From contig NZ_JAPZSK010000010.1 of NCBI RefSeq assembly GCF_027531815.1, positions 1 to 64,000 of the forward strand: 64,000 nt of DNA, in the 5' to 3' direction. Shown here piece by piece: positions 24,071-43,583 of this stretch. Within the stretch, counting starts at the first letter, position 1; each line of letters begins with the position of its first letter. This stretch comes from Gemmatimonas sp. (GTDB taxonomy: Bacteria; Gemmatimonadota; Gemmatimonadetes; Gemmatimonadales; Gemmatimonadaceae). Below the pieces are notes generated by a model that was not told where the DNA came from, searched no databases, and saw only the letters and a program-made list of their open reading frames with translations. The position numbers were made by a program, and so were the translations under genes.

Positions 24071-24745
24071 ATGGCGCAGGCGACCCGTAACCCACGCACC
24101 TCGACCGGGGCTTCGGCTCCGTTGAGCGACGACCCGATCGAGTCGGCGACCACTTGGCTCCAGCTCAACAGCAAGCCGATCCTGCTGGCGGTGGGCGGGG
24201 CGGCCGTTGCCGCCGCCGCGGTCCTGATCTACCGGAGCAGTGCGGCGTCGACGCGCGAAAAGGCATCCATCGCGCTGTACGAGGCGCAGGCGCCGTTCGT
24301 TCAGGGCAAGTTGCCCGAAGCGCAGCGCGAGCTCGAAAAGGTGGCCACGCGGTTCGGCGGCACAGCCTCCGGTCAGCAGGCAGCGATCCTGCTCGGGCAG
24401 GCGCTGTACGGGCAGAACAAGGTGGACGAAGGCATCAAGTCGCTGGAGAAGGCGCTTGGCAGCGCGTCGCCCGAGTTCAAGTCGAATATCGAATCGCTGA
24501 TCGCCGCCGGCTACGAGCAGAAGAACGAGATGGTCAAGGCCGCCGAGCATTACGGTAAGGCGGCGGCGCTGGCCCCGTACAAGTCGGAGAAGTACAACCA
24601 TCAGGCCAGCCAGGCCCGCAGCCTCATGGCCGCCGGAAAGAACGCCGACGCCAAGAAGATCTGGGAGGAGCTCTCGAAGCTGGAGGGGGAGCCGGTGCAG
24701 CAGGAGGCGACGGTCCGCCTCGGTGAGTTGGCGGCGAAGGGCTGA
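24071..24745 (+). CDS. Membrane-anchored tetratricopeptide-repeat protein (YfgM-like)
   Basis: The 224-residue protein has a short cytoplasmic N-terminus, one transmembrane helix (about residues 35-53, PILLAVGGAAVAAAAVLIY) and a C-terminal region of TPR-like helical repeats rich in Ala, Lys and Glu (about 60-224). The layout resembles YfgM/tol-pal-linked TPR proteins that sit at the periplasmic face of the membrane; the exact role is unknown. It is the last gene of the left arm, and its transcript ends at the terminator 38 bp downstream. Confidence 0.8.
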   Translation: MAQATRNPRTSTGASAPLSDDPIESATTWLQLNSKPILLAVGGAAVAAAAVLIYRSSAASTREKASIALYEAQAPFVQGKLPEAQRELEKVATRFGGTASGQQAAILLGQALYGQNKVDEGIKSLEKALGSASPEFKSNIESLIAAGYEQKNEMVKAAEHYGKAAALAPYKSEKYNHQASQARSLMAAGKNADAKKIWEELSKLEGEPVQQEATVRLGELAAKG

Positions 24746-24783
24746 GCCAACCCAACAGTCCTCGGTCAGTCAGCAGGGGAATC

Positions 24784-24819
24784 AGGCGGGCGACGGGGTG
24801 GTCGCCCGCCTCGTTTTTT
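24784..24819 (+). terminator. Rho-independent terminator
   Basis: An 11-bp GC-rich stem (AGGCGGGCGAC at 24784..24794 with GTCGCCCGCCT at 24801..24811), a 6-nt loop and then CG plus six T residues (24814..24819). It works in the + direction only, since the other flank has no A-run. It ends 10 bp before the dif-like site and so would shield that site from transcription arriving from the left arm. Confidence 0.92.
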
Positions 24820-24829
24820 GAGGGTTATT

Positions 24830-24857
24830 AGTGCGTATAATACATGTTATGTAAACT
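24830..24857. other. dif: dif-like chromosome-dimer-resolution site (XerC/XerD target)
   Basis: A 28-bp site with the XerCD layout: left 11-bp arm AGTGCGTATAA, 6-bp centre TACATG, right 11-bp arm TTATGTAAACT. Against E. coli dif (arms GGTGCGCATAA and TTATGTTAAAT, centre TGTATA), each arm matches at 9 of 11 positions with no gap, and the inner ATAA/TTAT palindrome is exact. It lies in the 296-bp gap where the + and - strand arms converge. dif sites lie at replication termini and are bound by XerC (left arm) and XerD (right arm); a XerD-like gene is at 42022..42960. Function is inferred. Confidence 0.85.
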
Positions 24858-25041
24858 AGAGTCGGTGGATAAGTGTGGGAAAATCCGCGCGTGGAAATCC
24901 CCTGTGCTGTGGGAAGATTGCGTAAGCCGTTGCTGTACAAGCAGATGAAATGTCGCCGCGGCGTTCCTTCGTGCCGGGCGCGTCACGAACACCTGAACTG
25001 TCCACCTGTCCACATCGTGGAACCGCACGAATGACAATCGC
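24858..25041. other. Intergenic DNA between dif and dapF, no gene seen
   Basis: This 184-bp stretch contains no credible coding frame. It holds several TGTGG/GTGGATAA-like words (for example 24870..24883) and inverted TGTCCAC words (about 24998..25017). I see no terminator for dapF with a T-run. Nothing further can be supported. Confidence 0.5.
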
Positions 25042-25953
25042 TTAGAGCGCGGCAATAACCCCTCGGAATACCACGCGCCCTTCACCTCGCAGCGAAGGCT
25101 GTCCGCGGCCTTGTTCCTCCGCGTTTTCCCCACCAGCGGTGGGAAGCCGGACCTGCAGCTCTCGGCCGGAACTGGTCAGGATGGTGACCACCGGGCCAGC
25201 GGCCAGCCCCCAGGCCGAGAGCAAGACGGCCGTGGCCACTGCCCCCGTGCCGCACGCCAGCGTCTCTCCCTCCACCCCGCGCTCGAAGGTGCGGTAGCGC
25301 CAGCGGCCGTCGAGTTGCCGGCTCACCCAGTTCACATTGGCGCCCGCGGCACCCAGGCTTGGGTGATGGCGGAGGACTGGTCCGCGCTCGCGCAGCGGGA
25401 CCGCTTCGGCGTCATCGCAGAGTACCACGAGATGCGGAATGCCTGCCATGGCGAAACCGACCGCCTGCTCACCGGGCGCCCGTTCGATGTCCACCGTTGG
25501 ACGCACGTCCATGACCGGCTGCAGGTCGATCTCCGGCAATTGGCCGGGGCCGTGTCCGGTGAGGCGGCTCGAAATGACACCCGCCCCGGTGGTCAGCCGC
25601 ATACCCGCTGGCGATGCCATATCCAACTGCGCGGCCAGCGCGGTTGAGCACAACGTGGCATTGCCGCAGAGATCCGCCGGCGACCCATCGCTGTTGAAGT
25701 AATGGATCGTGACAGCGGCGCCATCGCCTGCTGGCTCGAGTACGACAAGGCCGTCTGCGCCTATCCCATTGTTCCTGTTGCAGATGCGACGTATCACCTC
25801 AGGTGATGTGACACGTGCCAATGGAGTAAGGCGACCGTCGAAGAACACGAAGTCGTTCCCCGACCCGGTCATCTTGGTGAACGGGAGGCCGGCCAGCGAG
25901 GTGAGATCGACCGGTGGTACGGGGGGCGTTGGCTCCACTGCTTGGGAGCCCAT
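25042..25953 (-). CDS. dapF: Diaminopimelate epimerase
   Basis: Converts LL- to meso-diaminopimelate for lysine and peptidoglycan. The start at 25953 overlaps the stop of the upstream gene by one base, giving 303 residues including a Pro-rich N-terminal extension of about 18. The two catalytic cysteines are C96 (in DLCGNATLC) and C234 (ETLACGTGA), both present. The first motif deviates from the usual CGNGxRC (Gly to Ala, Arg to Leu) while keeping the cysteine. It is the first gene right of the dif site and the last of its operon. Confidence 0.92.
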   Translation of the reverse strand: MGSQAVEPTPPVPPVDLTSLAGLPFTKMTGSGNDFVFFDGRLTPLARVTSPEVIRRICNRNNGIGADGLVVLEPAGDGAAVTIHYFNSDGSPADLCGNATLCSTALAAQLDMASPAGMRLTTGAGVISSRLTGHGPGQLPEIDLQPVMDVRPTVDIERAPGEQAVGFAMAGIPHLVVLCDDAEAVPLRERGPVLRHHPSLGAAGANVNWVSRQLDGRWRYRTFERGVEGETLACGTGAVATAVLLSAWGLAAGPVVTILTSSGRELQVRLPTAGGENAEEQGRGQPSLRGEGRVVFRGVIAAL

Positions 25954-26714
25954 CAGTACTTGCCAGTCATGCCCCACCAACGGAGGCGCCACACCATCCA
26001 GATGGCTTCGCGTACGATCCGCTTGGACATCTTGGATTCCCCTTCGGTGCGGTCGTGGAACACGATGGGGATTTCGGCAATGCGGAAGCCGCGCTTCCAC
26101 GCGCGGAAGCTCATCTCGATCTGGAAGGCATACCCGTTCGAGCGCACGGCGTCGAGCGGAATGGCTTCCAGGACCTCGCGGCGAAAGCACTTGAAGCCTC
26201 CCGTCGCATCGCCGAGCCGAAGTCCAGTAATGGCACGCGCATAGATGTTGGCGCCGTAGGACAACATGAGGCGCGTGATCGGCCAGTTGACCACCGTGAC
26301 CTTGCCGTCACGGTACCGGGAGCCGAGCACCAGGTCGGCATCGCGGACGCTGGCAAGGAACTCGGGGAGGTGCGCCGGGTCATGCGAGAAATCGGCGTCC
26401 ATTTCGAAGACATAGCCGTAGTCGCGAGCCAGGGCCCAGCGGAACCCTGCCAGATACGCCCGCCCCAGTCCCTCCTTCCCCGGCCGGTGGAGCACGTGGA
26501 CCCGGGGGTCCGCCGCGGCCAGTTCATCGGCAAGCCGACCGGTACCATCCGGGGAGTTGTCGTCGACGATCAGCACGTCGAGCCGCGGATCCTGTTCGAG
26601 AATCCGCGGGACGATGCGCGTGACGTTCTCACTTTCGTTGTAGGTCGGCACGATCACGACGCCTCGCTCATCGATGCGGAGCACGCCACGTGCCGGAGTC
26701 TTGATACGGGTCAT
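25953..26714 (-). CDS. Polyprenol-phosphate mannosyltransferase-like GT2 (DPM1-type)
   Basis: The 253-residue GT2 enzyme resembles soluble DPM1-type polyprenol monophosphomannose synthases: GVVIVPTYNESENV at the N-terminus, IVDDNSPDGTG (nucleotide binding), DADFSHDP (catalytic DXD-like motif) and SRYRDG. It lacks the C-terminal membrane domain of other types. It would load a sugar from a GDP- or UDP-donor onto a polyprenyl phosphate at the inner membrane face. It leads into dapF (1-nt overlap) and follows a 148-bp gap after the membrane protein gene. Confidence 0.85.
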   Translation of the reverse strand: MTRIKTPARGVLRIDERGVVIVPTYNESENVTRIVPRILEQDPRLDVLIVDDNSPDGTGRLADELAAADPRVHVLHRPGKEGLGRAYLAGFRWALARDYGYVFEMDADFSHDPAHLPEFLASVRDADLVLGSRYRDGKVTVVNWPITRLMLSYGANIYARAITGLRLGDATGGFKCFRREVLEAIPLDAVRSNGYAFQIEMSFRAWKRGFRIAEIPIVFHDRTEGESKMSKRIVREAIWMVWRLRWWGMTGKY

Positions 26715-42021: not shown

Positions 42022-42960
42022 TCAGGCGCGCGGGTGGAACTGCTTGTGCACACTCCGAAGATACTCGCGGTCCACGTGCGTGTAGATCTGCGTGGTGGCA
42101 ATGTCGGCGTGGCCCAGCATCTCCTGCACCGCACGCAGGTCCGCGCCTCCCTCCAGCAGGTGGGTCGCAAAGGAGTGGCGCAGTGTGTGCGGGGACACGG
42201 CTTTCTCGAGTCCCGCTTGTTCCACATACTTGCGCAGAATTTTCCAGGCCCCCATGCGCGTCAACGGCGCGCCGCGTCCGTTGAGAAACAGCAGCCCCTT
42301 CCCCTGCCCCCGCTCCAGCACTGGCCGGAGTTCGCGCACATAGACCGCGACGGCGCCGATCGCCGAGCGCCCGATCGGGACGAGGCGTTCCTTGCTGCCC
42401 TTGCCGAACACGCGCACGAGCCCCTCCTCAAGCAGCACGTCCTTGACCGCCAGGCCGATCCATTCCGACACCCGGAGTCCGGCGCCGTAGGCCAGTTCGA
42501 GCATGGCACGGTCACGAAACGCCAGACGTTCTTCGAGCTGCGGCGCCGCGAGCAGTCGCGTCACTTCCTCCACGCTCAGGACCTCGGGCAAGGTCCGCCA
42601 CCGTTGAGGGGAGTCGAGCCGCTCCGTGGGATCGGTCGTGACCACCCCTTCGGCAAGCAGGATCCGATACCATGTGCGGAGCGCCGAGATGTTGCGACGG
42701 ATCGAGCTGCCGGCCAGGCCGAGATCCTTGAGGTGGTAGATGAACTCCCGGAGCGCCGCGGCGGTGATGGCACCGACCGTCGTGATCCCCTGCGCGCGCA
42801 TGAACACCGCACAGCGCAGCACATCGCGCCGATACGCGTCGATGGTCCGGGGTGAGGCCCCCGCCTCGAGCGCCAAGGCATCCTCGAACAGCTGCAGGGC
42901 GAACCCCTGCTGCAGACGGCGCCAGTCGTCGCCACGGTCAGGCAACGCCGGAGATGTCAC
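42022..42960 (-). CDS. xerD: Site-specific tyrosine recombinase XerD-like
   Basis: A 312-residue Xer recombinase: N-terminal SAM-like core-binding domain (about 15-105) and C-terminal catalytic domain. All catalytic residues are present: R163 (GAGLRVSE), K187 (GKGSK), H258 and R261 ([12 protein letters not shown]), H284 (LGHADIATT) and the nucleophile Y293 (QIYTHV). Length and motifs match XerD/XerC, not a phage integrase. The GTG at 42960 overlaps the dedA stop (GTGA); the longer open frame upstream is antiparallel-free but lies within dedA. Its partner XerC is outside the window. The natural target should be the dif-like site at 24830..24857. Confidence 0.92.
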
Positions 42961-43583
42961 TGGTGGGGCCCGCCGCCCGCGCGCGACGAGCGCATCCGCC
43001 ACGCGACAATCGCCACCACCATCATGGCAAGCACACCGGCGCCGATCGCCAGCAGGCGTTGCTGCTCCCCGATGCGCGCCAGCAACTGATCTGCGTTCGC
43101 GCCGGCCCGAAACGCCAGGACACACACGATCCCGTACCACACGCCGGATGCCAGTGTCATGGCAATGGCGGCACGCACGGCGCCGATGCCCAACGCTCCC
43201 GCCATGGGCGGCACCAGCGCGCGCACGCCCGGCAGGAAGCGACTCGCCATCACCGCGAACAGCCCCTGCGTCTGGAATCGCTCCGCAAAGCGGTCGGCTG
43301 CGGACGGTGAGACCATGGCAGGAAAGCGCCGCATCATCCACGGGAGACCGTAGCGGTGACCCAACCCATACATGAGCATGGCGCCTCCCACGTTACCCAC
43401 CATGGTCGCCAGCCACACGCCCCATTCGGTCCCGTTGCCGCGCGCAGCCACGAACGCGCCGAGCGCAATCACCGTGTCGGCAGGGAGCGGCGGAAAGACA
43501 TTCTCGAGAAAAGCCGCCGCGATGATGGCCCCGTACAACAGGGCCTCGGGAAGCGACGTCAACCACGCCATGAGCTCAGTCAT
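42957..43583 (-). CDS. DedA-family membrane protein
   Basis: A 208-residue membrane protein of the DedA/SNARE-associated family, whose members scramble or flip phospholipids such as undecaprenyl phosphate and keep the proton gradient. Motifs are AFLENVFPPLPADTVIALGAF (re-entrant loop), GNVGGAMLMYGLGHRYG and SRFLPGVRALVPPMAG, with two C-terminal helices. The specific lipid is unknown. It overlaps xerD by 4 nt. Confidence 0.88.
   Translation of the reverse strand: MTELMAWLTSLPEALLYGAIIAAAFLENVFPPLPADTVIALGAFVAARGNGTEWGVWLATMVGNVGGAMLMYGLGHRYGLPWMMRRFPAMVSPSAADRFAERFQTQGLFAVMASRFLPGVRALVPPMAGALGIGAVRAAIAMTLASGVWYGIVCVLAFRAGANADQLLARIGEQQRLLAIGAGVLAMMVVAIVAWRMRSSRAGGGPHQ

Follow-up and report, generated by a model that had tools for sequence, protein, structure and literature searches.

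Layout of the locus

The window analysed here, meaning the whole stretch of 64,000 nt, covers the opening 64 kb of contig C10 (316,875 bp) in a Gemmatimonas genome of 4.31 Mb assembled in 27 contigs. A gene-free gap of 296 bp (24746-25041) lies in it between convergent plus- and minus-strand genes, as the initial annotation had described, and contains a 28-bp dif-like site. The following features were assigned to the gap and its surroundings:

24071..24745, + strand: gene for a TPR-domain protein, left neighbour, kept across the order
24784..24811, + strand: terminator-like hairpin of the left (TPR) gene, followed by TTTTTT
24830..24840, + strand: left arm of dif, XerC side, AGTGCGTATAA, arm identity taken from E. 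coli dif by analogy
24841..24846, + strand: centre of dif, 6 bp, TACATG, the same in every genus match listed
24847..24857, + strand: right arm of dif, XerD side, TTATGTAAACT
25042..26190, - strand: dapF (diaminopimelate epimerase), right neighbour, kept across the order
42022..43341, - strand: gene for an xerD-type tyrosine recombinase, Xer homology over residues 148-439

Read directly from the window, positions 24830-24857 are AGTGCGTATAA-TACATG-TTATGTAAACT, with an 11-6-11 layout. The reported gapless alignment to the E. coli dif (GGTGCGCATAA-TGTATA-TTATGTTAAAT) was reproduced, with 9 of 11 positions matching in each arm and the inner ATAA/TTAT palindrome retained. The terminator-like hairpin ends 18 bp ahead of dif, and the true start of dapF may lie inside the annotated ORF.

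Uniqueness, terminus position, and conservation of the site

With up to three mismatches allowed, the window contained this single match (0.00 expected), and a search of the whole genome (4,307,374 bp, 27 contigs) at the same threshold returned one site only; the reversed pattern, used as the control, had 0 matches. Two closed relatives, G020 and G028, had one dif apiece.

The cumulative GC skew over the whole of contig C10 peaked at 24952, ~120 bp from dif. Because the genome itself is divided among 27 contigs, whole-chromosome skew was taken from relatives. In G020, the peak determined over 400 kb around dif was at 1,930,413, ~130 bp from dif at 1,930,285, and most skew samples taken elsewhere were above zero on the left arm and below zero on the right. 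The dnaA gene of G020 is located at ~450 bp of 4,636,964, and the skew minimum of the ori region was near dnaA (~10.7 kb in G028; less clean in G020). Copies of the E. coli KOPS, GGGNAGGG, converged on the site, with 85 directed toward dif and 9 away from it in 800 kb of G020 and 52 versus 12 on contig C10. The ratio of toward to away was 55:2 (G020) and 25:4 (C10) for GGGCAGGG. The switch in KOPS polarity was clear in G020; the short left arm of C10 has few sites. According to Kono et al. (2011, PMC3025954), dif corresponds to the skew switch and need not be the exact point at which forks meet.

The 28-mer was kept in the genus, the order, and the class: a strict pattern detected dif in 28 of 61 relatives, and with a looser pattern 85 of the 119 class genomes gave a match. 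Across the order, dif occupied the same gene gap in the same orientation, at a distance of 64 to >400 bp from dapF. Skew, uniqueness, and conservation all supported the earlier proposal that this is the chromosomal dif; each of the three possible contrary findings was looked for, and neither a skew turning point elsewhere, nor a better match at another switch, nor a loss of the 28-mer in relatives was observed.

Many metagenome contigs stop within ~180 bp of dif, including those of G011, G016, G024, G036, and G038 and likewise contigs of L094, L104, L112, L115, and L119; in G011, two contigs carry dif, and their left flanks differ slightly. These contig ends probably reflect strain variation around an invariant core that disrupts assembly. 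Mobile-element insertion was unsupported as the cause of the repeated ends, the two in G011 differing by small left-flank variants only and the neighbouring genes being in place.

Recombination machinery

Like E. coli, the organism encodes XerC, XerD, and the gamma domain of FtsK. The xerD-type gene is located 17 kb from dif in the same window, and its true start is probably inside the ORF, since Xer homology is found over residues 148-439. The XerC gene lies between trmFO and hslVU; its product scored 3 bits under the TIGR02224 cut-off, yet this was its best-scoring family. One FtsK gamma domain is encoded, on the same contig as dif, and its recognition helix, GYGRAARIIDQLE, is near-canonical. 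An integron integrase gene (TIGR02249, above the cut-off) was also observed at 391-1449 of contig C17 in G000, near the contig end.

KOPS lead FtsK to dif in E. coli, and FtsK activates XerD. By analogy, XerC would occupy the left arm of the site and XerD the right arm, and FtsK, steered by the converging GGGNAGGG-type KOPS, would join the two dif copies of a chromosome dimer at the septum, where activation of XerD by the gamma domain would lead to resolution of the dimer.

Conserved boxes beside the XerD arm

The initial annotation was right about the site itself and overlooked a conserved accessory element next to it. The boxes found on the XerD side were as follows:

24864..24872, + strand: accessory box 1, GGTGGATAA (complement TTATCCACC), +6 from dif, in 23 of 23 genus loci
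24874..24882, + strand: accessory box 2, TGTGGGAAA (complement TTTCCCACA), +16 from dif, a box of this type at +14 to +17 in 54 of 56 order loci
24890..24898, + strand: weaker box, CGTGGAAAT, +32, confined to some members of the genus
24908..24916, + strand: weaker box, TGTGGGAAG, +50, a spacing kept exactly in 9 of 23 genus loci

Loci were aligned on dif without use of the flanks. The consensus of the 23 genus loci to the right of dif, ungapped, consisted of 6 or 7 variable bases followed by GTGGATAA-n-TGTGGGAAA, of which 16 of 18 columns were invariant. The DNA to the right of the XerD arm is therefore conserved in the genus as strictly as dif itself; the left flank of dif and everything beyond ~+26 were unconserved at these 23 loci. 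The GTGGATAA-n-TGTGGGAAA element was single-copy in the genome, and its closest other match had 2 mismatches.

The box extended through the order. Among 56 order loci selected by dif only, 54 had a box at +14 to +17 with one mismatch allowed, against a background of 0.001 per position. An exact TGTGGNNAA was present at +15/16 in 48 of the 56 and elsewhere in the first 70 nt only at +6, and 37 of the 56 had a second copy one helical turn nearer dif. Outside the genus, the TGTGGANAA box was found with at most one mismatch at +15 or +16 in 32 of 33 order loci. Loci retrieved with the box pattern itself were left out of these counts, and no P value is drawn from them, the loci being related rather than independent. 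The exact composite pattern was present in 116 of 297 genomes of the phylum (reversed control, 0); nearly all of these belonged to the order, with four more from family f8 and one from f5. A right-side box accompanied 2 of 15 dif loci outside the order and was absent from five dif-like loci outside Gemmatimonadota (one E. coli dif and four others). Since most dif sites outside the order are without it, the box is unnecessary for Xer recombination in general. A separate box-like match in a relative (L203; G043:C1, ~931423) was located inside a CRISPR-like array with the repeat ATTTCCGCACTCACCTGAGTGCGGCCCCATTGAAGC.

These patterns suggest that the Gemmatimonadales dif exceeds the classical 28 bp and takes in one or two 9-bp TGTGGNNAA-type boxes on the XerD side. 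A box pair one helical turn apart, at +5/6 and +15/16, would constitute a fixed site for a sequence-specific protein, and it is very probable that some such accessory protein binds the boxes. From a position 15-16 bp off the XerD arm, in phase on the helix with the second box, this protein could contact or gate the XerD side of the complex. Alternatively, a box-bound protein might use the terminus as a regulatory landing site.

DnaA as a candidate binding protein

The complement of the boxes, TTN[TC]CCACA, is DnaA-box-like. Exact matches to the TTNTCCACA consensus were found at many order loci, and in the genus each box (TTATCCACC and TTTCCCACA) has one mismatch; judged by their sequence, the dif boxes of the genus are imperfect DnaA boxes. 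Exact TTNTCCACA was rare, with 16 occurrences in 1.1 Mb. A TTATCCACA box was present in the dnaA promoter of all five genus genomes (5/5), within the context TTGACTTATCCACA...GGTACCT. DnaA was considered the leading candidate because the complement, TTNTCCACA, agrees with the DnaA box as well as with the dnaA-promoter box; as the best single candidate, it has a little less than an even chance of being the protein on the dif boxes. The gap between dnaA and dnaN, which we take from general oriC anatomy to be oriC, contains CCACA repeats and a run, CTGCTGCTACTAC, resembling a DnaA-trio. The CCACA boxes there are more degenerate, and the exact motif is therefore not confirmed by oriC.

Bound DnaA could gate Xer recombination or couple the state of DnaA to the end of the chromosome cycle. 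A more specific and more tentative proposal is that Gemmatimonadales DnaA binds a dedicated box pair abutting dif and so makes the activation of XerCD chromosome resolution responsive to its own state, or to its occupancy as replication ends. If true, this would be a direct link of initiation control to the terminus. No description of DnaA boxes as part of a bacterial chromosomal dif was found in the open-access literature, judged largely by title.

A second cluster, of four DnaA-box-like 9-mers, was observed ~300 kb to the left of dif (G000, C6:233770-233895). Its distances to a small, conserved downstream gene (134 aa) are fixed in G000, G005, G003, and G028, and its boxes count in favour of DnaA as the candidate. 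This cluster is possibly a DnaA regulatory locus. It was rejected as oriC because of its position (~1.63-1.82 Mb in closed relatives) and the missing skew switch, and the dnaA-dnaN gap has the features of an oriC. In addition, a 579-aa protein with two tandem DnaA-type ATPase domains is encoded at G000 C6:174619-176199 (L128, 4475-6214, - strand); a Pfam search identified no DnaA DNA-binding domain in it. Its gene adjoins genes for an MglA-like GTPase and TPR proteins, is also present in G020 and G028, and is ~237 kb from dif in G020.

Alternative explanations

The locus could be a plain 28-bp dif whose conserved tail is part of something else in the gap, for example functionless inherited sequence or the dapF transcript at its 3' end. 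The accessory element is always downstream of dapF and all of the loci are related by descent, as this would predict, but the spacing between box and dif is fixed at 15/16 bp even though the distance to dapF varies severalfold, and the flanks immediately outside the boxes are unconserved. Fixed spacing next to unconserved flanks means that shared descent alone is insufficient, and we regard this explanation as unlikely. The boxes could instead be a signal for FtsK, such as a variant KOPS, a loader, or a stop site by dif. Such a signal would suit a G-rich motif directly at dif and the near-canonical helix of the gamma domain. However, the KOPS here is GGGNAGGG, directed toward dif, whereas GTGGATAA and TGTGGGAAA are rare, directed away from dif, and confined to one side. 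The boxes were rejected as KOPS because of this rarity and polarity, and a role as another kind of FtsK signal is included in our assessment that the explanation as a whole is quite improbable.

An Xer site of a phage or plasmid (attP- or pdif-like), rather than a chromosomal dif, was the remaining alternative. Elements that use Xer exist generally, but the site is a single copy at the skew switch, its gene gap does not change within the order, and no mobile element lies beside it; the conservation data already refute this reading, to which we attach a negligible probability. Among viral contigs, four matches to dif plus box were obtained, of which two shared an identical site; a Gemmatimonas-type dif core was absent from all four, and they were judged compatible with chance. 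A 50-kb viral contig, L243 (IMGVR_UViG_3300027759_004442), carries ACTACGTATAATACATGTTATGTAAACC at ~696-723 on the reverse strand, matching a Gemmatimonas dif at 26 of 28 positions. Its GC content is 38% in the 40 kb covered, its genes resemble those of a large lytic phage, and it gave no match to the PF00589 integrase family; its site could be an Xer-using phage site or chance.

The reading that we prefer, and hold with good confidence, is that positions 24830-24857 are the only chromosomal dif, enlarged in the order by a fixed accessory site for which DnaA is the leading candidate.

Relation to known systems and significance

The site has in common with the dif/XerCD-FtsK system of E. coli its 28-bp, 11-6-11 structure, arms matching at 9 of 11 positions, placement at the skew switch, and converging GGGNAGGG. 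It differs in that the E. coli dif locus examined has no adjacent box, whereas TGTGGNNAA keeps a constant spacing from dif on its XerD side in Gemmatimonadales. Plasmid Xer sites of the ColE1 cer type have accessory protein-binding DNA by the Xer core, as is proposed here, and their accessory proteins are ArgR and PepA; their accessory DNA is ~200 bp long and they are independent of FtsK, whereas the present site is chromosomal, of the FtsK type, and has one or two 9-bp boxes. The E. coli datA and DARS loci resemble the element in having clustered TTNTCCACA-like 9-mers at a fixed locus, with DnaA binding putative in the present case; to our knowledge, neither datA nor DARS is located at dif.

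The dif1 and dif2 sites of Vibrio are likewise XerCD-FtsK sites with KOPS, and the authors of that study sought flanking motifs for accessory proteins and found none (PMC2533119). In Thermococcales, dif is bordered by conserved AT-rich stretches of ~23 bp, for which an unknown protein partner was suggested (PMC2958812); these sites are archaeal, use the single recombinase XerA, and have AT-rich flanks rather than a TGTGGNNAA box on the XerD side. A dif was predicted in 1 of 1 Gemmatimonadetes genome in Table 1 of Kono et al. (2011, PMC3025954), a site of the same kind in the same phylum, and a flanking element is not mentioned in the excerpted text of that paper. Because this prediction dates from 2011, there is nothing unusual about the dif as such within its family; what sets it apart is the accessory site. 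In the open-access literature, judged largely by title, no description of dimer resolution in Gemmatimonas was found.

A fixed accessory box at dif throughout the order implies that a further protein takes part in resolving bacterial chromosome dimers; chromosomal dif is normally viewed as a bare 28-bp site under the control of FtsK. The fixed spacing also provides a precise signature for locating dif in Gemmatimonadales genomes. Should that protein prove to be DnaA, a single locus would connect the beginning of the chromosome cycle with its end.
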